64,000 nucleotides of DNA from Bacillota bacterium (GTDB taxonomy: Bacteria; Bacillota; Clostridia; UBA1381; UMGS1253): positions 1 to 64,000 of the forward strand of contig JAKJBW010000004.1 in assembly GCA_022706785.1 (NCBI GenBank), read 5' to 3'. Both the position numbers and the translations under genes were made by a program. Numbering within the stretch: the stretch's first letter is position 1; the number at the start of each line of letters is the position of its first letter. Positions 313 to 30,040 of this stretch are shown piece after piece. The notes under the pieces are model-generated. The model saw only the letters and a program-made list of their open reading frames with translations. It made no database searches and was not told where the DNA came from.

Positions 313-416
313 CGGCAGCGGAATGCGAAAGCAGCACCGCAAGCCGTTATGGCTTTTCGTACAAAAAGCAACTTCCCGTCTTTTTGTCACTTAACGCGCC
401 GCAAACTACTCTGCCA
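313..416 (-). promoter_or_regulatory. Tetrahydrofolate (THF) riboswitch
   Basis: On the minus strand the segments GGCAGAGTAG (415-406), GCGTTAAGTG (397-388), GACGGGAAGTTG (380-369), ACGAA (360-356), GCGGTG (340-335) and CTGCC (318-314) occur in the order and spacing of the folT-motif RNA (THF riboswitch). GGCAG (415-411) closes with CTGCC (318-314) as stem P1. The aptamer is followed by a terminator and then folT, the usual arrangement in Clostridia. This is recognition from memory of the class, not a covariance-model hit. Confidence 0.88.
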
Positions 417-20204: not shown

Positions 20205-21395
20205 ATGTCAAGGAAGCTTTTTACATCTGAATCTGTAACCGAAGGACATCCTGATAAAATATGTGATTTGATATCCGACGCCATTCTTGATGATATTATT
20301 GCCAAGGACCCGGGGGCTCGTGTTGCCTGCGAGGTGACGGCGACAACCGGCCTGATTATGGTTGTGGGTGAGATCAGTACGTCTACCTATGTGGATATAC
20401 AGCAGGTGGTGCGCCAAACGGTCAGGGAGATAGGCTACGACAGGGCGAAATTCGGCTTTGACTGCGATACCTGTGCGGTGATCACTGCACTTGACGAGCA
20501 GTCTCCCGATATCGCCATGGGTGTTAACGAGTCGCTTGAAATGAAGCAGCACCTTTCAGATGATGAGGACGCCGGGCGCAACGGGGCAGGGGATCAGGGA
20601 ATGATGTTTGGATTTGCCTGCAATGAGACGCCTGTGCTTATGCCTATGCCTATCTATCTTGCGCACAAGATGGCCCTGCGCCTGACACAGGTGCGCAAGG
20701 AAGGGCTCCTGTCTTACTTGCGTCCGGACGGCAAAACACAGGTTACTGTAGAGTATGAAAATGACAAGCCTGTAAGGATCGACACTGTGGTGGTGTCAAG
20801 CCAGCATGACGCGGAGGTTTCATTAGACGTTATACGCCGTGATGTTATTGCCAATGTGGTACTGCCGGTTTTGCCTCCTGAGCTTGTGGATACGGATACA
20901 AAGTTTTTTATTAATCCCACGGGCCGGTTTGTTGTCGGAGGGCCGCAGGGGGATTCCGGGCATACGGGCCGGAAAATTATTGTGGACACTTACGGCGGGT
21001 ATTCGCGTCACGGCGGCGGCGCTTTTTCGGGCAAGGATCCGACAAAGGTAGACAGGAGCGCGGCGTATGCGGCGCGGTATGTGGCTAAAAATATAGTGGC
21101 TGCCGGGCTGGCCGACAAGTGCGAGCTCCAGATTGCTTATGCTATTGGTGTGGCAAAGCCTGTCTCGGTTATGGTGGACACTTTCGGAACCGCTAAAATA
21201 GACGAAGCTGAAATTCTAAAGCTGGTAGAGCGCAATTTCGACTTGAGGCCCGCCGCGATTATCAAAAACCTGGATTTGAGAAAGCCGATTTATAAAAAGA
21301 CCGCGGCTTACGGACATCTGGGAAGGGAAGACTTAGAGCTGCCATGGGAAAGGACGGACAAGGCCGCCGCGTTAAGAGCGCAGGCCGGGCTGTAA
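20205..21395 (+). CDS. metK: S-adenosylmethionine synthase
   Basis: The 396-residue enzyme makes S-adenosylmethionine from methionine and ATP in the cytoplasm. Signatures: [20 protein letters not shown] at the N-terminus, [10 protein letters not shown] (ATP-binding loop), and [20 protein letters not shown] with the catalytic lysine. The length matches the bacterial family. AAGGAG lies before the ATG at 20205, after an unusual structured leader. The hydrogenase accessory genes follow 66 bases downstream in the same direction with no terminator, so metK may lead that operon. S-adenosylmethionine feeds radical SAM enzymes, including those that build the hydrogenase H-cluster. Confidence 0.97.
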
Positions 21396-21461: not shown

Positions 21462-21806
21462 ATGGTATTATCCCAGGTAAAAGAGATTTTAAACGCGCAG
21501 GTTATAGCGGGGGAGCAGTTTATTGGATGTGAAGTATGCACGGCCTGCGGGAGCGATCTCATGAGCGACGTTTTGGCATTTGTCAAGGAGCAGGGGATAC
21601 TGCTTACCGGGCTTGTGAATGCACAGGTTGTTCGCACAGCGGAAATGATGGATATTAAGGTGATTGTTTTTGTACGCGGCAAGGTACCCAATGATGAAAT
21701 GGTACGAATGGCGATACAGAAGGAAATGGTGCTTATGTCCACCGGCTTTCCGATGTACATAGCCTGCGGCAAGCTCTATAACGCAGGCCTTATACCGGGC
21801 GAATAA
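21462..21806 (+). CDS. DRTGG-domain-like protein, hydrogenase-cluster type
   Basis: A small protein of 114 residues resembling the DRTGG domain proteins found with Clostridial [FeFe]-hydrogenase genes. It has an alternating alpha/beta pattern, TGLVNAQVVRTAEMMDIKVI followed by VFVRGKVPNDEMVRMA, and three cysteines, two of them in EVCTACGSD. No enzyme motif is evident. AGGAGG precedes the ATG at 21462. A related gene is found at 23696, so the cluster has two DRTGG-like genes on either side of an ATPase and a hydrogenase-like protein. A ligand-sensing role is plausible from use of this domain in phosphotransacetylases, but not shown. Confidence 0.8.
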   Translation: MVLSQVKEILNAQVIAGEQFIGCEVCTACGSDLMSDVLAFVKEQGILLTGLVNAQVVRTAEMMDIKVIVFVRGKVPNDEMVRMAIQKEMVLMSTGFPMYIACGKLYNAGLIPGE

Positions 21807-21827
21807 GCCGGGGATGGAGGCGTTTTT

Positions 21828-22289
21828 ATGAGTGATGTGATCAGGCTGCACTTTGATGTGGCAGGGGATAATCTTACCGAAGCGGGCGCGGCGGCGGGCA
21901 GTGTGAAAAAGGTACTTCACCAGCTCGGCGTTGATCCGGCAGTTATCAGAAGGGTTGCGGTTGCCATGTATGAGGGCGAGATCAATATGGTAATCCATGC
22001 CGACGGCGGAACGGCCGACGTTGAGATAACACCGGAATATATTAAGGTTGTACTCACAGACAGCGGCCCGGGCATAAAAGACATTGACCTTGCTATGACG
22101 GCGGGGTATTCCACGGCCACTAAGCGGGTAAGGGAGATGGGTTTTGGCGCCGGTATGGGACTGCCGAATATGAGAAGTTACAGCGATGAAATGAATATAA
22201 CATCAGAAGTTGGCGTAGGAACAACAGTAGAAATTTTGATTTACACAGGTAAAGACCGCTCGCCTGTTAATATGGCGGCGGAGGCATAG
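21828..22289 (+). CDS. Anti-sigma-factor-like ATP-binding protein (HATPase_c, RsbW/SpoIIAB type)
   Basis: A 153-residue GHKL-fold protein. The N-box region is AVAMYEGEINMVIHADGG, the G1 box is LTDSGPGIKDIDLA, and the G2 box is MGFGAGMGLPNMRSYSD, so the ATP site looks complete. It lacks the phosphoacceptor His domain of a sensor kinase, and its size fits serine kinases that bind sigma factors or anti-anti-sigma proteins. No STAS partner or sigma factor is encoded nearby. GGAGG is seven bases before the ATG at 21828. It lies between a DRTGG protein and a hydrogenase-like ferredoxin, which suggests a regulatory task tied to hydrogenase expression or assembly. Confidence 0.85.
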   Translation: MSDVIRLHFDVAGDNLTEAGAAAGSVKKVLHQLGVDPAVIRRVAVAMYEGEINMVIHADGGTADVEITPEYIKVVLTDSGPGIKDIDLAMTAGYSTATKRVREMGFGAGMGLPNMRSYSDEMNITSEVGVGTTVEILIYTGKDRSPVNMAAEA

Positions 22290-22308
22290 CTGAAAGCGGG
22301 TGAGCAAA

Positions 22309-23625
22309 ATGGAAAGGAACTACTTTCATTCGGTCATGCTTGATCGGGATAAATGCATGGGCTGCATCAACTGCATAAAGCGGTGTCCGACAGAGGCGAT
22401 CCGCGTGCGGCATGGCAAGGCTAAAATCATTAAAGAAAGATGTATTGATTGCGGCGAATGTATCCGAGTATGTCCGTATCACGCCAAAAAGGCGGTGACC
22501 GATCCTTTTGACAGGATTTACGCATATGCATACAAAATAGCCCTGCCGGCGCCTACACTGTACGGACAGTTTAATAATATCGAGGACATCAACATTGTTC
22601 TTAACGGATTAAAGCACATCGGCTTTGACGATGTGTTTGAGGTCGCGCGTGCGGCCGAGATCGTGACGGCTGCGTCTGTTGACATGATAAGCCAGGGCAA
22701 GCTTGTGATGCCCATCATATCGTCTGCGTGTCCTGCGGTTGTGCGGCTTATCCGGGTCCGGTTCCCCAACCTCATAAAGCATGTGCTCCCCATTCTGTCA
22801 CCTATGGATGTGGCGGCAAAGCTCGCAAAAAAAGAGGCGGCCCAAAAAACAGGACTTGCCCCGGAAAAGATTGGGGTGTTTTTTATTTCGCCCTGTGCCG
22901 CCAAGGTAACCGTTATGCGGGATCCGTTAGGGCAGGAAAAGTCCGAGGTGGACGGCGTCATTGCCATGAACGACATCTATATGAAGCTGGCGCCCATTAT
23001 AGGCAAAATAAAGCCTGAGGAAAATCTGGTGAAAGCCAGCCTTAAGGGTGTGGGCTGGGCAAACAGCGGCGGTGAATCCTTAGCGCTCGGAAAAGACGAG
23101 TATATTGCGGTTGACGGTATTGATAACGTGATCAAGGTGTTGGAGGAGCTTGAGGACGAGCAGCTTACCGACATTAAATTTGTGGAAGCATCCGCCTGTG
23201 TGGGCGGATGCGTGGGAGGGCCGCTTGCGGTCGAAAACGGGTTTGTGGCGGAGACCAGGATCAAAAGGCTGATGAAAAATCTTGGGCCGGATAATACACA
23301 GTCCGAAATCCCTGAAGTGGCGCTGGCAGACGTTTTGTGGAGCAGTAAGCTGGAGTATACTCCTGTAATGAAGTTAGACGACGATATGCTCACCGCTATG
23401 AGAAAGATGGAGCAGCTTGAGCGCCTTGCCGAGGATTTGCCCAAGCTTGATTGCGGCTCATGCGGCGCGCCGACATGCAAAGCGCTGGCTGAAGATATTG
23501 TGCGGGGCTTTGGCCGTGAGATCGACTGTATTTACAAGCTGCGTGAGCGGATACGCAAGCTTGCCAATGAGATGGTGGATTTAGAGGAAAATCTGATTGC
23601 ATTCAGACAGGATGAGCAGGAATAA
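22309..23625 (+). CDS. Divergent [FeFe]-hydrogenase-like iron-sulfur protein
   Basis: About 438 residues. Two [4Fe-4S] ferredoxin motifs come first (CMGCINCIKRCP and CIDCGECIRVCP), then an H-cluster-domain region, then a C-terminal CGSCGAPTC motif as in the PF04060-type Fe-S domain. The three H-cluster motifs are altered: SSACPAVV in place of TSCxPxW, SPCAAKV in place of MPCxxKxxE, and SACVGGCVGG in place of MACxGGCxxGGG. The four cysteines that hold the cluster remain, while surrounding catalytic residues differ. This matches putative sensory or non-catalytic hydrogenase homologues. ATG 22309 is chosen over GTG 22300 because GGGTGA precedes it; both are in frame. Confidence 0.85.
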   Translation: MERNYFHSVMLDRDKCMGCINCIKRCPTEAIRVRHGKAKIIKERCIDCGECIRVCPYHAKKAVTDPFDRIYAYAYKIALPAPTLYGQFNNIEDINIVLNGLKHIGFDDVFEVARAAEIVTAASVDMISQGKLVMPIISSACPAVVRLIRVRFPNLIKHVLPILSPMDVAAKLAKKEAAQKTGLAPEKIGVFFISPCAAKVTVMRDPLGQEKSEVDGVIAMNDIYMKLAPIIGKIKPEENLVKASLKGVGWANSGGESLALGKDEYIAVDGIDNVIKVLEELEDEQLTDIKFVEASACVGGCVGGPLAVENGFVAETRIKRLMKNLGPDNTQSEIPEVALADVLWSSKLEYTPVMKLDDDMLTAMRKMEQLERLAEDLPKLDCGSCGAPTCKALAEDIVRGFGREIDCIYKLRERIRKLANEMVDLEENLIAFRQDEQE

Positions 23626-23695
23626 GTAAGCCGATATGCTTTAGCGGTATAAAGTATGGTGCTTTCTTTTGTGAGAAGGGAATGAATTTAGAACT

Positions 23696-24031
23696 ATGAA
23701 GGTAGATAAACTTGCCGATGAACTGGGGCTTAAGCTTCTTGTGGGCAAAAGCGGGCTTGCAAACGAGGTAACAGGCTGCTATATATGCGATCTGCTGAGC
23801 TATGTCATGGGCCGGGCGTCTAAGGGGGATGCTTGGATTACGGTGCAGACCAATATTAATGTGATTGCGGTGGCTGTGCTTACCGAGGTGGGGTGCGTTA
23901 TCGTGCCTGAGGACATTGAAGTGGATGAAAAAACGCTTGCCAAGGCTGAGCTTGAAGGAATAGCGGTCCTGTCTTCATCCCGTAGCGCCTATGAGCTGGC
24001 GTGTGCCATAAAAGCGCTTATATCGGTGTAG
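23696..24031 (+). CDS. Second DRTGG-domain-like protein of the hydrogenase cluster
   Basis: A 111-residue protein related in layout to the gene at 21462. It begins MKVDKLADELGLKLLVGKSG, has TGCYICDLLSYVMGRASKGD, and ends with AVLSSSRSAYELACAIKALI. The alternating strand and helix pattern and the cluster context support the DRTGG-like call. There is no clear strong ribosome binding site (AAGGGAATG lies somewhat far from the ATG). It precedes the PHP gene by 25 bases. Function unknown; a regulatory ligand-binding role is inferred. Confidence 0.78.
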   Translation: MKVDKLADELGLKLLVGKSGLANEVTGCYICDLLSYVMGRASKGDAWITVQTNINVIAVAVLTEVGCVIVPEDIEVDEKTLAKAELEGIAVLSSSRSAYELACAIKALISV

Positions 24032-24056
24032 GCTGCAAAAGAAGGGGTGTGGACGG

Positions 24057-24791
24057 GTGAAATATTTTTATGATCTGCATATTCATTCCTGTCTGTCGCC
24101 ATGCGGGGATGCGGATATGACGCCTAACAATATCGTGAATATGTCCCGTCTCAAAGGCCTTGACATTATTGCGGTAACTGACCACAACAGCGCCGGTAAT
24201 GTCGCAGCGGTCATGACATGCGGGCAGCAGGCGGGGGTGCTGGTCGTGCCCGGGATGGAGATAGAAACCTCTGAGGAAGTGCATGTTCTGGCGTTTTTTC
24301 CTTCGCTTGACAAATGCCTGCAAATGGATTCGATGATAACTGCCGCCATGCCGCAGCTTGAAAACAGGGAAGAGATATTCGGTGCGCAGCACCTTCTAAA
24401 TGAGCGTGATGAGTATGTGGGCTCTGTTTCGCGCATGCTGGTTACGGCCGGCAAGCTGTCTATAGAAGAGGTTGCGCGTCACGCGCAAATACTCGGAGGG
24501 GTCACCGTGCCGGCGCATGTTGACAGAAGCTCCTACAGCGTGTTGTCCAATCTGGGCTTCATACCGCCCGAACCGGGATTTACCTGTGTGGAGATTTCTA
24601 AAAACACAGACCGTGACCACGCTATACGAAGATATCCTTTTCTTTCGGATTACCACATCTTATCTTCATCAGATGCGCATTATCTGGCCGATATATCCGA
24701 GCCGCAGCAAACGCTTGATTTGCCGCAGCTGTCTGCCGAGGCTGTTGTTTCGTTTCTTAAAACCCACAGAACAGGCATAAACGATATATAG
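24057..24791 (+). CDS. PHP-domain metal-dependent phosphoesterase
   Basis: The 244-residue protein has the PHP motif I DLHIHSCLSPCGD, motif II AVTDHNSAGNV, VVPGMEIETSEEVHVLAF (motif III with conserved Glu and His) and SSDAHYLADI near the C-terminus. These supply the usual metal-binding His and Asp set. PHP proteins of this size hydrolyse phosphodiesters or phosphomonoesters, and one is regularly found in Clostridial hydrogenase clusters, where its substrate is not known. It starts at GTG 24057 with GGGGTG upstream. A terminator follows about 110 bases later. Confidence 0.88.
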   Translation: MKYFYDLHIHSCLSPCGDADMTPNNIVNMSRLKGLDIIAVTDHNSAGNVAAVMTCGQQAGVLVVPGMEIETSEEVHVLAFFPSLDKCLQMDSMITAAMPQLENREEIFGAQHLLNERDEYVGSVSRMLVTAGKLSIEEVARHAQILGGVTVPAHVDRSSYSVLSNLGFIPPEPGFTCVEISKNTDRDHAIRRYPFLSDYHILSSSDAHYLADISEPQQTLDLPQLSAEAVVSFLKTHRTGINDI

Positions 24792-24936: not shown

Positions 24937-24954
24937 TTGTTAAAGCCTTAACAA
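24937..24954 (+). promoter_or_regulatory. Rex-type redox operator upstream of hydC
   Basis: TTGTTAAAGCCTTAACAA is a perfect 18-bp dyad (TTGTTAA-n4-TTAACAA) that equals the Rex consensus of Firmicutes. Rex senses NADH/NAD+ and represses fermentation and hydrogenase genes when NADH is low. The site is 94 bases before the hydC start. No rex gene is in the window. Confidence 0.85.
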
Positions 24955-24970: not shown

Positions 24971-25006
24971 CTAAGGCTATTTTTGTTGGTATGTCACAAG
25001 CCTTAG
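24971..25006 (+). other. Inverted repeat in the hydC leader
   Basis: CTAAGGCT (24971-24978) and AGCCTTAG (24999-25006) are exact complements with a 20-nt loop, between the Rex-type site and the hydC ribosome binding site. Role unknown. Confidence 0.4.
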
Positions 25007-25047: not shown

Positions 25048-25536
25048 ATGAGTGAGAAAAAGGTTATTACTTTTAAGGGCACAAAGGAGCAGGAAGCTCG
25101 ACTCTTAAAAGCGATTGAAAGCCATAAGGGGCAGCCCGGATCGCTTATGCCGATTTTGCAGCAGGCCCAGGAGATTTACGGCTATCTTCCAATAGAGGTG
25201 CAGCGTATTATTGCTCAGAAGACAGGCATTTCCATGGCGGAGATTTACGGGGTAGTGACATTTTATACCCAGTTTTCCCTGTATCCCAAGGGTGAGTACA
25301 AGATCAGCGTCTGCATGGGAACGGCTTGTTATGTCAAGGGTGCAAACGCTATATTGGACAGACTCAAGGAGCGCCTGGGGATAGAGGTTGGTGAGTGCAG
25401 CTCCGACGGCAAATACTCGCTGGATGCTACCCGCTGCATAGGCGCGTGCGGTCTTGCGCCGGTTCTGACTGTTAACGACGATGTTTACGGCAGGCTTGTC
25501 GCGGACGATGTTGACGGTATATTAGCGAAATATTGA
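25048..25536 (+). CDS. hydC: NADH-linked hydrogenase subunit HydC/HndA (NuoE type, 2Fe-2S)
   Basis: The 162-residue subunit carries a thioredoxin-fold [2Fe-2S] cluster. Ligand motifs are CMGTAC (Cys-x4-Cys) and CIGAC (Cys-x3-Cys), as in NuoE. GSLMPILQQAQEIYGYLP and EIYGVVTFYTQFSL are conserved family segments. AGGAGG before the ATG at 25048 decides the start. It is the first gene of the hydrogenase operon, with the Rex-type operator upstream. In HydABC or HndABCD enzymes it helps pass electrons between NADH at HydB and the H-cluster subunit. Confidence 0.94.
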   Translation: MSEKKVITFKGTKEQEARLLKAIESHKGQPGSLMPILQQAQEIYGYLPIEVQRIIAQKTGISMAEIYGVVTFYTQFSLYPKGEYKISVCMGTACYVKGANAILDRLKERLGIEVGECSSDGKYSLDATRCIGACGLAPVLTVNDDVYGRLVADDVDGILAKY

Positions 25537-25537
25537 T

Positions 25538-26089
25538 ATGCAGGAGCTGTCGTTACATGTGCTTGATATTGTGCAAAACGCTGTTAAAGCCGAGGCAACG
25601 CTGATAGAGATCGATATCGCGCAAAGCGTGCAGGAGGACACTCTCTGCATTACGGTGAAGGATAACGGCAAAGGCATGACGCCGGAATTCCTGAAAACGG
25701 TTACCGATCCCTTTTCCACAACAAGAACGACTCGCCGTGTGGGGCTGGGTATACCCCTTTTCAAGGAGGCGGCGGAGGCAGCGGGCGGCAGCTTTGACAT
25801 AGAAAGCGCGCCGGGAGCCGGGACACGCGTGTGCGCTGTGTTTGGTTACTCACACATTGACCGTCAGCCTATCGGCGACATGGCTTCCACGCTTTTGTCA
25901 GTGGTGCAGTGCAATCCCGATATCGAATTTGTCTATCATCACAGCAGTGACCTTGGAGGCTTTGATTTTGACACACGGCAAATAAAGAAGATACTGGCGG
26001 GAGTTCCCATCACAAGCCCGGACGTCGCGGTATGGATGAGGGACTATTTGAATGAAAACATTGAAAAATTATATGGAGGTGCACAATAA
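25538..26089 (+). CDS. GHKL ATP-binding protein of the hydrogenase operon
   Basis: A 183-residue protein with an N-terminal HATPase fold: LHVLDIVQNAVKAEA (N-box), VKDNGKGM (G1) and RRVGLGIPLFKEAAEAAGGS (G2). The last 80 residues (from about GDMASTLLSVVQCNP) form an unassigned extension. It has no His-kinase dimerisation domain. The ATG lies two bases after the hydC stop with no ribosome binding site of its own, so translation is probably coupled. This ATPase recurs between hydC and the 2Fe-2S gene in many Clostridia; its role in regulation or assembly is unknown. Confidence 0.85.
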   Translation: MQELSLHVLDIVQNAVKAEATLIEIDIAQSVQEDTLCITVKDNGKGMTPEFLKTVTDPFSTTRTTRRVGLGIPLFKEAAEAAGGSFDIESAPGAGTRVCAVFGYSHIDRQPIGDMASTLLSVVQCNPDIEFVYHHSSDLGGFDFDTRQIKKILAGVPITSPDVAVWMRDYLNENIEKLYGGAQ

Positions 26090-26461
26090 ATGAAGTCATT
26101 GGCAGAGCTTGAAGCGCTAAGAAAGAATGCTTTAGAACAAATCCATATGCGCCATGACAGAAAAGACGGCATAAGAATCGTTGTAGGTATGGCCACCTGC
26201 GGAATTGCGGCGGGGGCCCGGCCTGTGCTGGGCGCGTTTATGGAGGAAATAGCAAACAGGAAGCTTTCCGATGTGACCGTGACCCAGACGGGATGCATAG
26301 GGGTTTGCCGTCTGGAGCCTGTTGTTGAAGTCTATATGCCCGGCCAAGAGAAGGTAACATATGTTAAGATGGACGCACAGAAGGCAAAAAAGGTTGTAGC
26401 GGATCATATTGTTAACGGTTTGGTCGTATCGGAGTATACCATCGGAGAAGTTGAACAATAA
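26090..26461 (+). CDS. Thioredoxin-like [2Fe-2S] ferredoxin subunit (HndB type)
   Basis: A 123-residue protein with the fold of the N-terminal part of NuoF/HydB. The first cysteine is in MATCGIAAGARP and the last pair in QTGCIGVCRLEP. These give only three cysteines where four would ligate a plant-type or thioredoxin-like [2Fe-2S] cluster, so cluster binding may be altered. GGAGGTG precedes the ATG at 26090. The gene lies directly between the ATPase and hydB, the place of hndB in NADP-reducing hydrogenase operons, and is probably a subunit of the complex. Confidence 0.87.
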   Translation: MKSLAELEALRKNALEQIHMRHDRKDGIRIVVGMATCGIAAGARPVLGAFMEEIANRKLSDVTVTQTGCIGVCRLEPVVEVYMPGQEKVTYVKMDAQKAKKVVADHIVNGLVVSEYTIGEVEQ

Positions 26462-26478
26462 TAGGGAGGGGAAGCGGT

Positions 26479-28278
26479 ATGAATTTATATAGAAGCCACG
26501 TCTTGGTCTGCGGCGGAACGGGCTGTAATTCGTCGGGTTCTGCTAAGGTTTTCGAGGCGTTTGAGGCTAAGATAAAGGAAAAGAATCTGGATAAAGAGGT
26601 CATGGTAGTCAGGACGGGCTGCTTCGGGCTTTGCGCGCTCGGTCCTGTCGTCGTCGTGTATCCTGAAGGCTCCTTCTACAGCATGGTTGAGCCCGGGGAT
26701 GTAGAAGAGATTGTTGAGGAGCATTTGCTCAAGGGCAGAATTGTAAAGCGTCTGTTATATTCCGAGACCTTGCCCGCAGAGCAGAGTGACACTATATTAT
26801 CGTTAAATGACGTTGATTTTTATAAAAAACAGATGCGTATCGCACTGCGCAACTGCGGTGTGATAAATCCTGAAAAAATTGAGGAATACATTGCTTTTGA
26901 CGGCTACAAAGCGCTTGGCAAGGTGCTCACGCAAATGAAGCCGGAGGAAGTGATTGAGGAGATAAAGAAGTCGGGTCTGCGCGGCCGCGGCGGCGCAGGT
27001 TTCCCCACAGGGGTAAAGTGGGGCTTTGCCGCAAACGTTTCCGCCGACCAAAAATATGTTGCCTGTAACGCGGACGAAGGCGATCCCGGCGCGTTCATGG
27101 ACAGAAGCGTGCTTGAGGGGGATCCCCATGCGGTTGTAGAAGCCATGGCAATCGCCGGGTATGCCATAGGGGCAAGTCAGGGCTATATTTATGTCCGCGC
27201 AGAATATCCTATTGCGGTTGAGAGGCTTCAAATTGCTATCAAGCAGGCAAAAGAGTACGGGCTTTTGGGCAAGGATATCTTTGGCAGCGGCTTTGATTTC
27301 GACCTTGATATCCGTCTTGGCGCCGGCGCGTTTGTGTGCGGTGAGGAAACCGCGCTCATGACTTCGATCGAGGGCAAGAGGGGCGAGCCCAGATGCCGTC
27401 CGCCGTTCCCTGCTGTGAAAGGATTGTTTGGCAAGCCGACGGTTCTGAATAACGTCGAGACATACGCCAATATCCCCATTATTATCAATAAGGGCGCCGA
27501 CTGGTTTGCCGGCATAGGTACTGAAAAGAGCCACGGCACAAAGGTGTTTGCGCTGGGCGGCAAAATCAACAATACCGGCCTTGTGGAAGTGCCGATGGGC
27601 ACTACGCTCCGTGAGATCATAGAAGAAATCGGCGGCGGTATTCCAAACGGCAAGAAGTTTAAGGCTGCCCAGACGGGAGGCCCCTCCGGCGGATGTATTC
27701 CCGCAAGCCTGATCGATACGCCCATTGACTATGACTCGCTTATCAGCATAGGCTCAATGATGGGCTCCGGCGGCCTTATCGTTATGGACGAGGACACCTG
27801 CATGGTGGATATTGCAAAGTTTTTCCTTGAATTCACTGTTGACGAGTCCTGCGGCAAGTGTGTGCCGTGCAGAATAGGCACTAAGAGGATGCATGAAATA
27901 CTTGAAAAGATCACAAGCGGAAATGGCATGCTCCAGGATATTGACAAACTCGAAGCATTGTGCAACAGCGTTAAGAGCTCGGCGCTGTGCGGGCTTGGCC
28001 AGACGGCTGCCAACCCCATCTTAAGCACACTGCGTTATTTCAGGGACGAATATATCGCCCACGTTGTGGATAAGAAATGCCCTGCCGGCGTGTGTAAATC
28101 ACTGCTGGTTTACAAGATTGACCCCGATCAGTGCAAGGGCTGCAGCATATGCGCGAAGCATTGCCCGACCAATGCCATTTCAGGCAAGCTCAAGTCGCCC
28201 TATGTCATAGATACGGAAAAATGTATCAAATGCGGTGTGTGCGAGGCAAAGTGTCCCTTTAATGCGATATCCAGATAG
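26479..28278 (+). CDS. hydB: NADH-binding flavin subunit HydB/HndC of the [FeFe] hydrogenase
   Basis: This 599-residue protein oxidises or reduces NAD(H) through FMN. Domains in order: a thioredoxin-like [2Fe-2S] domain (CGGTGCNSSG, then CFGLCALGP), the NuoF NADH/FMN domain with GRGGAGFPTGVKWGF and NADEGDPGAFMDR, the SLBB region, a [4Fe-4S] site (ESCGKCVPCRIGTKRM), and a C-terminal double ferredoxin domain (CKGCSICAKHCP and CIKCGVCEAKCP). This matches HydB of electron-bifurcating hydrogenases, which couple NADH and reduced ferredoxin oxidation to H2 release. GGGAGGGG precedes the ATG at 26479; hydA follows 16 bases after its stop. Confidence 0.95.
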   Translation: MNLYRSHVLVCGGTGCNSSGSAKVFEAFEAKIKEKNLDKEVMVVRTGCFGLCALGPVVVVYPEGSFYSMVEPGDVEEIVEEHLLKGRIVKRLLYSETLPAEQSDTILSLNDVDFYKKQMRIALRNCGVINPEKIEEYIAFDGYKALGKVLTQMKPEEVIEEIKKSGLRGRGGAGFPTGVKWGFAANVSADQKYVACNADEGDPGAFMDRSVLEGDPHAVVEAMAIAGYAIGASQGYIYVRAEYPIAVERLQIAIKQAKEYGLLGKDIFGSGFDFDLDIRLGAGAFVCGEETALMTSIEGKRGEPRCRPPFPAVKGLFGKPTVLNNVETYANIPIIINKGADWFAGIGTEKSHGTKVFALGGKINNTGLVEVPMGTTLREIIEEIGGGIPNGKKFKAAQTGGPSGGCIPASLIDTPIDYDSLISIGSMMGSGGLIVMDEDTCMVDIAKFFLEFTVDESCGKCVPCRIGTKRMHEILEKITSGNGMLQDIDKLEALCNSVKSSALCGLGQTAANPILSTLRYFRDEYIAHVVDKKCPAGVCKSLLVYKIDPDQCKGCSICAKHCPTNAISGKLKSPYVIDTEKCIKCGVCEAKCPFNAISR

Positions 28279-28294
28279 AAAGGAGAGATGAAAA

Positions 28295-30040
28295 ATGCAG
28301 ACAGTTAATATCAAGATCAACGGCAAAGAGTTGAGCGTTCCTGCCAGCTATACGGTACTGGAAGCGGCGCGCCTTGCCAATATAGATATTCCTACCCTGT
28401 GCTACTTAAAAGGCGTAAACCAGATCGGCGCGTGCAGAATGTGCGTGGTTGAGATCAAGGGCGCCAGAAGCCTTCAGGCGGCCTGTGTTTATCCTGTCAG
28501 CGAGGGTATGGAGGTGAGCACTAATTCGGCGTTGGTCAGAGAGTCGCGAAAGACAACGCTCCAGCTGATTTTATCCAACCATGATAAAAAGTGCCTTACC
28601 TGCGTGAGGAACCGCAACTGCGAGCTGCAGACGCTTTCTGATGAGCTTGGCATAGGCGATATTCCCTTTGAGGGAGAGGTCTCTGACGCAAGATGCGAGA
28701 TTGACAATATGTCGCCGTCTATTGTGCGTGACAACAATAAATGTGTCCTGTGCCGCCGCTGCATAAGCGTGTGTAAAAACGTGCAGACGGTAAGCGTTAT
28801 CGATGCCAAGGAAAGAGGCTTTAAGACCAATATCGGCTGTGCGTTTGATAAATCGCTGGGCGAGGTCGCGTGTGTGAACTGCGGTCAGTGTATTGCGGTT
28901 TGCCCTGTCGGCGCATTGTATGAGAAGGATACCACCGAAAAAGTATGGCAGGCGATTGAAGATACCGCCAAGCACGTTGTTGTCCAGACCGCTCCGGCTG
29001 TCAGAGTGGCGCTGGGAGAGGAATTTGGCATGCCGATAGGTTCGCGTGTGACAGGCAAAATGGTGGCTGCGCTTCGCCGGATGGGCTTTGACAGGGTGTT
29101 TGACACCGATACGGCTGCCGATCTTACCATTATGGAAGAGGGCACGGAGGTTATCGAGCGTATTACTCAGGGCGGCAAGCTGCCTGTTATCACTTCGTGC
29201 AGCCCCGGCTGGGTGAAGTTCTGCGAGCATAACTATCCGGAATTTTTAGATAACCTTTCCACGGCAAAGTCCCCCCACGAGATGTTTGGGGCGCTGATTA
29301 AGTCATATTACGCCGATAAGGCAGACATTGATCCTAAAAATATTGTGGTCGTATCGGTTATGCCGTGCACCGCCAAGAAATTCGAGGCAGAGCGGCCGGA
29401 GCTTTCAAACGGCGGCAATCAGGATGTTGATATGGTCATCACGACCCGCGAGCTGGCCAGAATGATCAAGCAGGCAGGTGTTGATTTTGTTAACCTGCCC
29501 GATGAAGCGTTCGACAATCCGTTCGGCGGAGCGTCAGGCGCGGGCGTTATCTTCGGCGCGACGGGCGGCGTTATGGAGGCTGCGCTGCGTACCGTTGCGG
29601 AGGTGCTCTCCGGCAAGTCGCTGGACGATTATGAATACAAGGTAGTGCGCGGCACCGACGATATCAAGCGTGCGGAGGTCGATGTGGCCGGCAGAACCAT
29701 AAAAGCCGCTGTGGCACATGGTCTGGGCAATGCCAGAAAGCTTTTGGACGCTGTTAAGGCGGGCAAGGAAAGCTACGATTTTATCGAGATCATGGCATGT
29801 CCGGGCGGCTGCGTAACGGGCGGCGGGCAGCCCATTGTAGACGCGAAAAAGCAGATGGACATCAATGTGAAAGCTGAGCGTGCCAAGGCGATCTATGCTG
29901 AGGATAAATCGCTACCGATAAGAAAGTCGCATGAGAATCCTGTGATCAAAAAGCTTTACGACGAGTTTCTTGAGAAGCCCGGTTCGCACAAAGCGCACAG
30001 ACTCTTGCACACGCATTATACCGAGCGCGAACTGTACTAA
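28295..30040 (+). CDS. hydA: [FeFe] hydrogenase catalytic subunit HydA/HndD
   Basis: The 581-residue catalytic subunit reduces protons to H2. Domains: plant-type [2Fe-2S] ferredoxin (Cys36, 47, 50, 64), a His-Cys3 [4Fe-4S] site (HDKKCLTCVRNRNC), two [4Fe-4S] motifs (CVLCRRCISVCK and CVNCGQCIAVCP), and the H-cluster domain with all three classical motifs TSCSPGW, MPCTAKKFE and MACPGGCVTGGGQP intact. A C-terminal small-subunit-like region ends the protein. Size resembles the HndD type and lacks the extra C-terminal cluster domain of longer HydA forms. GAAAGGAGAG precedes the ATG. The maturases HydE, HydF and HydG are not in the window. Confidence 0.97.
   Translation: MQTVNIKINGKELSVPASYTVLEAARLANIDIPTLCYLKGVNQIGACRMCVVEIKGARSLQAACVYPVSEGMEVSTNSALVRESRKTTLQLILSNHDKKCLTCVRNRNCELQTLSDELGIGDIPFEGEVSDARCEIDNMSPSIVRDNNKCVLCRRCISVCKNVQTVSVIDAKERGFKTNIGCAFDKSLGEVACVNCGQCIAVCPVGALYEKDTTEKVWQAIEDTAKHVVVQTAPAVRVALGEEFGMPIGSRVTGKMVAALRRMGFDRVFDTDTAADLTIMEEGTEVIERITQGGKLPVITSCSPGWVKFCEHNYPEFLDNLSTAKSPHEMFGALIKSYYADKADIDPKNIVVVSVMPCTAKKFEAERPELSNGGNQDVDMVITTRELARMIKQAGVDFVNLPDEAFDNPFGGASGAGVIFGATGGVMEAALRTVAEVLSGKSLDDYEYKVVRGTDDIKRAEVDVAGRTIKAAVAHGLGNARKLLDAVKAGKESYDFIEIMACPGGCVTGGGQPIVDAKKQMDINVKAERAKAIYAEDKSLPIRKSHENPVIKKLYDEFLEKPGSHKAHRLLHTHYTERELY

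Follow-up and report, generated by a model that had tools for sequence, protein, structure and literature searches.

A Co-inherited Gene Cassette around a Putatively Sensory Group D [FeFe]-Hydrogenase in Bacillota

Results

Organization of the Locus

The DNA analyzed here, termed the window, comprises positions 1 to 64,000 of contig JAKJBW010000004.1 from a Bacillota bacterium. Five open reading frames, all on the + strand, were confirmed at positions 21462-24791 in the order drtA-hatp-hydS-drtB-php. They are flanked on the 5' side by metK and on the 3' side by hydCDEBA (about 25048-30040), and their features are collected in Table 1. This row of five genes had been reported in a first-pass annotation, and each of the open reading frames was found as it was given there. 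The recurrence of the gene arrangement across genomes is far beyond chance. In the region upstream of drtA, no sigma-70 promoter could be called with confidence.

Table 1. Features of the cassette and its flanks in the window
Feature	Position	Strand	Description
metK	20205..21395		5' flank of the block
drtA	21462..21806	+	single-domain DRTGG-fold protein (predicted), 114 aa; first cassette gene
hatp	21828..22289	+	SpoIIAB/RsbW-type GHKL ATPase, 153 aa; intact N-box Glu/Asn and G boxes
hydS	22300..23625	+	441 aa; [FeFe]-hydrogenase of group D (M2e), putatively sensory
drtB	23696..24031	+	second DRTGG protein, 111 aa
php	24057..24791	+	putative PHP-family metallo-phosphoesterase, 244 aa
Rex operator TTGTTAAAGCCTTAACAA	24937..24954	.	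perfect match, 0 mismatches, 5' of hydC
hydC	25048..25536	+	NuoE-like bifurcating hydrogenase subunit
hydD-position	25538..26089	+	histidine-kinase-like GHKL ATPase
hydE-position	26090..26461	+	thioredoxin-like [2Fe-2S] protein
hydB	26479..28278	+	NuoF-like flavoprotein subunit
hydA	28295..30040	+	group A [FeFe]-hydrogenase catalytic subunit; NF040763 above its own cut-off

The start of hydC adopted in Table 1 is preceded by AGGAGGA and is likelier than the listed start at 24991. The operator upstream of this gene is the sole exact Rex site in the genome, which also contains a rex gene, and on these two grounds hydCDEBA is predicted to belong to the Rex regulon. At other loci the enrichment of Rex boxes was modest (30 sites versus 12 in the reversed control), with 10 sites near hydC and 4 near drtA, and for this reason our claim of Rex control is confined to the window and does not extend to all loci.

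HydS Is a Group D Hydrogenase Homologue

HydS matches the Pfam families Fe_hyd_lg_C, FeS (PF04060), and Fer4 at the curated cut-offs. Two N-terminal [4Fe-4S] sites are followed by the H-domain and then by a C-terminal cluster site, Cx2Cx4Cx16C, with exact spacing (C385, C388, C393, and C410). Eight N-terminal, four H-cluster, and four C-terminal cysteines are retained. A Pfam scan of HydS detected no PAS domain, and the protein does not fit group C.

The proton path of group A is absent from HydS, and that of group D is kept. When residues of TamHydS from Thermoanaerobacter mathranii were mapped onto HydS by a constant offset from the published positions, rather than by sequence alignment, the path E252-E289-S249-D265 corresponded to E259, E296, S256, and D272, and eight further group D residues (R30, R32, K35, K58, D378, E392, D393, and D403) corresponded to R35, R37, K40, K63, D384, E398, D399, and D409, respectively. 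Among 70 sequences, Glu occupies position 259 in 68 and position 296 in all 70, and D272 is found in 65; position 256, Ser in the window, is variable. Compared with the published TamHydS residues, these motifs mark HydS as a putatively sensory [FeFe]-hydrogenase of group D (M2e). HydF and HydG are encoded in the genome.

The alternative proton path underlies the activity of TamHydS (PMC10407848), which is catalytically competent, yet slow (PMC8163306). The sensory hypothesis for group D proteins is already in print (PMC8163306, PMC3561251, PMC3608648), and the accessible portions of the literature gave no in vivo demonstration that a group D enzyme senses H2. The first-pass annotation had described a possible sensor with altered hydrogenase motifs that keeps the cluster cysteines but not the catalytic surroundings. 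HydS does belong to the kind of protein proposed as sensory, and its cysteines are kept. The altered motifs are present, in the form known from earlier descriptions of group D, and the surroundings cannot be called lost because the group D proton path remains.

The SpoIIAB/RsbW-Type ATPase

The product of hatp matches Pfam HATPase_c (PF02518) and HATPase_c_2 (PF13581) at the curated cut-offs, and TIGR01925 below its cut-off. The closest solved structure is SpoIIAB. Residues E49, N53, D78, G80, and G82 are invariant in 69/69 sequences, as is the stretch G105-G111. Judged from these motifs, the protein keeps the catalytic Glu and Asn of SpoIIAB together with the N box and G boxes of the SpoIIAB/RsbW family.

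With SpoIIAB and RsbW as its closest matches, the ATPase could be the anti-sigma factor and kinase of a classical partner switch, acting on a STAS antagonist and on a sigma factor in charge of the hyd genes. However, the one STAS protein found in the genome assembly, which is 90.7% complete so that another may have been missed, is SpoIIAA, whose gene lies in a separate spoIIAA-spoIIAB-sigF operon, and no STAS or sigma gene belonging to the cassette lies within the window. The anti-sigma reading was lowered after this genome-wide search for STAS partners, and we now regard partner switching as improbable.

DRTGG Proteins, a Putative PHP Phosphoesterase, and a Second ATPase

DrtB is a DRTGG protein that matches PF07085 at 29.0 bits against a cut-off of 25.2. 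DrtA has no Pfam match of its own. Its AlphaFold2 model (pLDDT 92.8) resembles the DRTGG structure 2ioj (TM score 0.86); against the DRTGG region of the Clostridium perfringens CBS-pyrophosphatase, the TM score is about 0.74. In a fusion protein from locus L054, the stretch orthologous to DrtA exceeds the Pfam DRTGG cut-off. From the predicted fold and this fusion, DrtA is assigned as a DRTGG-fold protein. S35 and T49 of DrtA are invariant in 52/52 sequences (family alignment A5), as are D32, S35, T49, and N55 of DrtB in 57/57 (alignment A8). The residue opposite Ser35 in the DRTGG protein AF1212 is Gln. Conservation makes Ser35 of both proteins a candidate phospho-acceptor.

The php product matches Pfam PHP above the curated cut-off and keeps H8, H10, H43, E68, H76, H154, D206, and H208. 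All of the His, Glu, and Asp metal ligands are present except the Asp of motif I, where the usual SDG is replaced by SPC with an invariant Cys16. Profile searches matched the structures of EndoQ, TM0559, and RNase AM, as well as nucleotide phosphatases. The nearest solved relatives act on nucleic acids or nucleotides and not on phosphoproteins, an observation that counts against phosphoprotein chemistry. An AlphaFold2 model built from four sequences reached a pLDDT of 52 and was discarded. The ATPase at the hydD position is a probable sixth member of the cassette; its gene follows php in cassettes that lack HydS and is fused to the PHP gene at L082.

These relationships bear on a nucleotide-ligand circuit, close to the suggestion in the first-pass annotation that the DRTGG and PHP proteins make or remove a ligand. 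DrtA and DrtB, with CBS domains where these occur, would bind an alarmone, either an adenine nucleotide or a dinucleotide, that PHP hydrolyzes and the ATPases read or use, with HydS modulating the circuit through H2. Ligand chemistry for these proteins is a guess, and a nucleotide would be compatible with the fusion of the ATPase to CBS pairs and with the profile matches of PHP. In addition, one of the nearest solved relatives of DRTGG is the CBS-DRTGG region of the C. perfringens pyrophosphatase, which was crystallized with AMP and Ap4A; the nucleotide in that protein, however, spans the CBS domains and not DRTGG (PMC13039410). The cassette also lacks a nucleotide-making enzyme, and we consider such a circuit possible but unlikely.

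Co-inheritance and Fusions

Among 398 sampled genomes of the phylum, DrtA is present in 158 of the 160 that encode HydS and this PHP in 149 of the 160, counts that ignore shared ancestry. Fourteen genomes have DrtA without HydS. The cassette occurs in about 40% of the sampled genomes, and recurrence in Clostridia, which had been stated earlier, extends widely through the phylum. The complete gene order is found in 49 of the 72 loci read, median intergenic gaps range from -3 to 20 bases, and the neighborhood with HydABC is constant. The ATPase gene is adjacent or fused to hydS in 70/72 loci, which makes it the closest partner of HydS and agrees with the earlier proposal that the signal passes through the ATPase.

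Fusions join DRTGG to HATPase (L054 above the cut-off; L045, L055, and L063 by length and sequence), HATPase to HydS (L097), HydS to DrtB (L056 and L057), PHP to the HydD-type ATPase (L083 by length, besides L082), and CBS to HATPase (L053, L059, L096, L115-L119, and L127). Because the partners are neighboring genes, the fusions weigh less than independent evidence. The block is well supported as a co-inherited cassette. A search made for a defense-system reading gave nothing.

HydS might instead be an ordinary slow catalytic hydrogenase, as the competence of TamHydS might allow (PMC8163306), with unrelated genes kept beside it by operon inheritance. Against this, co-inheritance holds in families f86 and f128, where the parts of the cassette are unlinked, and fusions join the parts to one another. 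We consider this explanation very improbable.

Cassettes without HydS

In loci L115-L119 the order is DrtA-CBS-HATPase-DrtB-PHP-HydD, with no HydS. In family f86, HATPase-HydS and DrtA-DrtB-PHP-HydD are on different contigs, and the latter group lies directly behind rex in L122-L124. Some cassettes adjoin rex or rnf-like genes without hydrogenase genes, and the HydS-less versions fall in at least two separate places in the tree. HydS would be an exchangeable input, replaced in some lineages by a CBS pair that is fused to the ATPase and probably senses adenylates. Given that some versions lack HydS, the central function of the cassette need not involve H2. The HydS-less cassettes, the probable membership of the hydD-position ATPase, and the Rex operator were all absent from the first-pass annotation.

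The constant HydABC neighborhood would suit a role outside signaling, in which the set helps to assemble or stabilize HydABC and similar Fe-S flavoproteins, with GHKL ATPases as chaperones, DRTGG and PHP as helpers, and HydS as a structural relative. A further point in favor is that the Acetobacterium woodii hydrogenase contains an additional subunit without cofactors, HydD (PMC6288185), a possible counterpart of the hydD-position protein in the window. The full active site and proton path kept in HydS argue against this role, as do the HydS-less cassettes beside rex or rnf-like genes, and we find it no likelier than partner switching.

Discussion

Proposed Relay

We propose that HydS would feed a relay in which a SpoIIAB-like ATPase acts on the DRTGG pair, PHP reverses the step, and redox metabolism is adjusted, a reading that we judge to have an even chance of being correct. 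As a slow group D [FeFe]-hydrogenase, HydS would provide the H2 or redox input, and we infer that H2 is the signal in vivo. HydS would sit on the ATPase and set its state. The targets of the ATPase may then be DrtA and DrtB, which it would most likely phosphorylate, with Ser35 as the candidate site, or bind in a nucleotide-dependent way, as SpoIIAB does with its partner. PHP, together with the hydD-position ATPase, would undo the modification or remove a nucleotide ligand. The output would tune NADH, ferredoxin, and H2 metabolism, presumably through the neighboring HydABC in the window and probably through a Rex- or Rnf-linked system in other genomes. More tentatively, the SpoIIAB-type kinase, DRTGG pair, and PHP may form a general, previously undescribed anaerobic redox and energy signaling system that is tied to HydABC, Rnf, and Rex and takes its input from an H2-activating H-cluster protein in most genomes and from a CBS adenylate sensor in others.

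The route by which a signal leaves a group D hydrogenase is an open question in the literature (PMC8163306, PMC13104023), and the cassette supplies likely signaling partners. The HydS-less versions show that the relay can be detached from its H2 input. With named partners and a separable relay, H2 sensing by group D enzymes becomes directly testable. The cassette also links H2 sensing to NADH through Rex and probably to the adenylate state.

Comparison with Known Systems

The closest known protein is TamHydS, which has the same domain order, the Cx2Cx4Cx16C motif, no PAS domain, and the group D proton path (PMC8163306, PMC10407848, PMC13104023). Like HydS of the window, it is encoded 5' of a bifurcating hydrogenase and beside a histidine-kinase-like ATPase. 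The accessible portions of these papers name the ATPase and an AraC regulator as neighbors, with no mention of the DRTGG pair, of PHP, or of CBS and rex versions. That a group D HydS neighbors a kinase-like ATPase and HydABC had already been published (PMC8163306, PMC3561251, PMC3608648); in the searchable papers, the DRTGG pair and PHP do not figure in this arrangement. No description of DRTGG proteins with a hydrogenase, or of the cassette parts together, was found in the open-access literature. New here are the DRTGG pair and PHP as members of the cassette, the co-inheritance counts, the fusions, the replaceability of HydS, and the Rex operator.

The group C sensory hydrogenases (TmHydS, RaHydS, and HfsB) share with HydS the altered H-cluster surroundings, a C-terminal FeS domain, and proposed H2 sensing. 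They carry PAS domains and pair with kinases or phosphatases, whereas HydS of the window has no PAS. The SpoIIAB and RsbW kinases have the ATPase fold and catalytic residues of the hatp product, but in the cassette DRTGG proteins fill the neighboring place and there is no STAS protein or sigma factor. The C. perfringens pyrophosphatase shares the DRTGG fold of DrtA and DrtB and the CBS domains of related cassettes. In the pyrophosphatase, DRTGG forms a single domain within a larger enzyme, whereas in the window it makes up two independent proteins of one domain each, with Ser35 invariant. The regulatory [NiFe]-hydrogenases have an unrelated metal center and act in a two-component system with a PAS kinase. 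Together with the PAS-containing kinase HoxJ, they provide a parallel in the way the system works, a hydrogenase feeding a GHKL-type kinase (PMC8163306).

Gene Content and Class of HydS

The row of five genes called in the first-pass annotation (two DRTGG-like proteins, an ATPase, a hydrogenase homologue, and a PHP protein) was borne out in its positions, with all of the genes co-directional. Pfam agrees for the ATPase, the PHP protein, and one of the two DRTGG proteins, and also for the hydrogenase homologue and the FeS domain at its C-terminus. The Pfam search of the window proteins gave no match for the first DRTGG-like protein, DrtA, itself. Its assignment holds by fold, the best PDB match to the predicted structure (pLDDT 92.8) being 2ioj, a DRTGG protein (TM 0.86), and the orthologous stretch of a fused protein at locus L054 also passes the Pfam DRTGG cut-off. 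Downstream of php, hydC is followed by the hydD-position gene for an HK-like ATPase, a gene for a 2Fe-2S protein, then hydB, and lastly hydA (group A; score above its NCBIfam cut-off). The labels hydD and hydE denote gene position and not homology to the same-named Acetobacterium woodii proteins.

HydS, the [FeFe]-hydrogenase homologue, retains all of the cluster-binding cysteines, as had been proposed. In motif L1 the H-cluster cysteine is preceded by Ala (SSAC), L2 is SPCAAK, and L3 is ACVGGC. The spacing of the C-terminal motif, Cx2Cx4Cx16C, is that published for [FeFe]-hydrogenase groups C and D. Pfam detects no PAS domain in HydS. The group D-conserved residues given in PMC10407848 and PMC13104023 are present at constant offsets, and are kept in most or all of 70 relatives. 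HydS of the window is filed as putative group D by this mapping from published positions. Genes for HydF and HydG were found in the genome.

Recurrence, Gene Order, and Fusions

Of 398 genomes sampled from the phylum, 160 gave a HydS match to a five-sequence profile (E <= 1e-60). DrtA was found in 172 (E <= 1e-16, a threshold that lets in some DrtB too) and PHP in 155 (E <= 1e-40). The proposed recurrence of the set was supported: HydS occurs with DrtA in 158 genomes, with PHP in 149, and with both in 149 (Fisher p < 1e-84, values that ignore shared ancestry). Among 72 loci (the window, five from an earlier locus search, and 66 picked for spread from the better HydS matches, hence biased toward group D), the full order is found in 49, and HATPase and HydS are adjacent or fused in 70. 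Contig ends truncate several of the incomplete loci, and four carry a DrtA stretch joined to the ATPase.

Fusions join DRTGG to HATPase (L054 by Pfam; L045, L055, and L063 by length and sequence), HATPase to HydS (L097), HydS to DRTGG (L056; L057 by profile), PHP to the HK-like ATPase (L082; L083 by length), and CBS to HATPase (L053, L059, and L096).

Other elements are collected in the table. A literature search found no description of the hydrogenase-sigma-54 activator fusion; the hydrogenase-MCP fusion resembles the known group C2 kind. The HydS pieces in genome G037 suggest a decaying or frameshifted gene, and the L112 repeats may be an assembly edge.

Coordinates of the operator and of side elements
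Feature	Location	Strand	Remarks
Exact Rex operator, TTGTTAANNNNTTAACAA	window 24937-24954		between php and hydC; sole exact copy in genome
THF riboswitch	window 314-415	minus	86 bits
[FeFe]-hydrogenase and FeS domains fused to sigma-54 activator	L045:15053-17278		cassette locus; AAA+ and Fis-type HTH
Same fusion	L059:15006-17690		cassette locus; AAA+ and Fis-type HTH; additional PAS
Hydrogenase domain fused to MCP signalling domain	L051:9534-11447		adjoins HATPase-HydS
In-frame tandem repeats	L112 (G000:C38) 1-731	both	contig start; unit ~34 residues
DrtA, then HydS fragments	G037:C1:688164-689093		HydS in two pieces, beside cassette

Cassettes without HydS

HydS is an exchangeable part of the cassette. 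Loci L115-L119 have the order DrtA, CBS-HATPase, DrtB, PHP, and HydD-type ATPase, with HydS absent between them. The best HydS-profile match in genome G321 (9e-23) reads as a HydA-length protein, and G117 and G150 hold more distant matches, near 1e-52. Genomes of family f86 carry HATPase-HydS on one contig and DrtA-DrtB-PHP-HydD on another. In a concatenated tree, the HydS-less cassettes fall in at least two places. A support of 1.0 joins L118/L119 to the split loci, and L115-L117 fall around L096, which carries both CBS and HydS, with support 0.65.

Regulation and Mechanism

Rex is encoded directly upstream of DrtA in L118, L122, and L124 (Pfam), the gene in that position in L120 and L123 reads as Rex, and in L125 a Rex gene (Pfam) is some genes distant from the cassette. 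By profile match and reading of the sequence, rnf-like genes adjoin L117 and L127. The rex-drtA-drtB-php-hydD block of L122, L123, and L124 appears from the sequence to be flanked by folC-like and maf-radC-mreBCD-like genes. Since an exact operator lies between php and hydC and a rex gene was found in the genome of the window, hydCDEBA is probably under its own Rex-controlled promoter, separate from the cassette.

The nearest solved relatives of the HATPase are SpoIIAB proteins, with which the catalytic Glu and Asn align; both are invariant in 69 sequences. Apart from one encoded in the sporulation operon, no STAS protein was found in the genome, and thus the DRTGG proteins are the likelier HATPase partners. 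Ser35 is invariant in DrtA (52/52) and DrtB (57/57), is aligned with Gln in AF1212, and from this conservation is a candidate acceptor residue, no more. The PHP protein keeps its metal ligands save the motif I Asp; motif I reads SPC, with an invariant Cys after the missing Asp position. Because the nearest solved relatives of PHP are nucleases and phosphoesterases, a nucleotide circuit is still the main rival reading of the cassette.

Comparison with Known Systems

PMC8163306, PMC3561251, and PMC3608648 already place group D enzymes, regarded as putatively sensory, near a kinase and ahead of a bifurcating hydrogenase. A search of the open-access literature turned up no paper in which the DRTGG pair and PHP are assigned to a group D system. 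New findings of this analysis are the figures for co-inheritance, the protein fusions, the CBS cassettes that lack HydS, and the link to rex.
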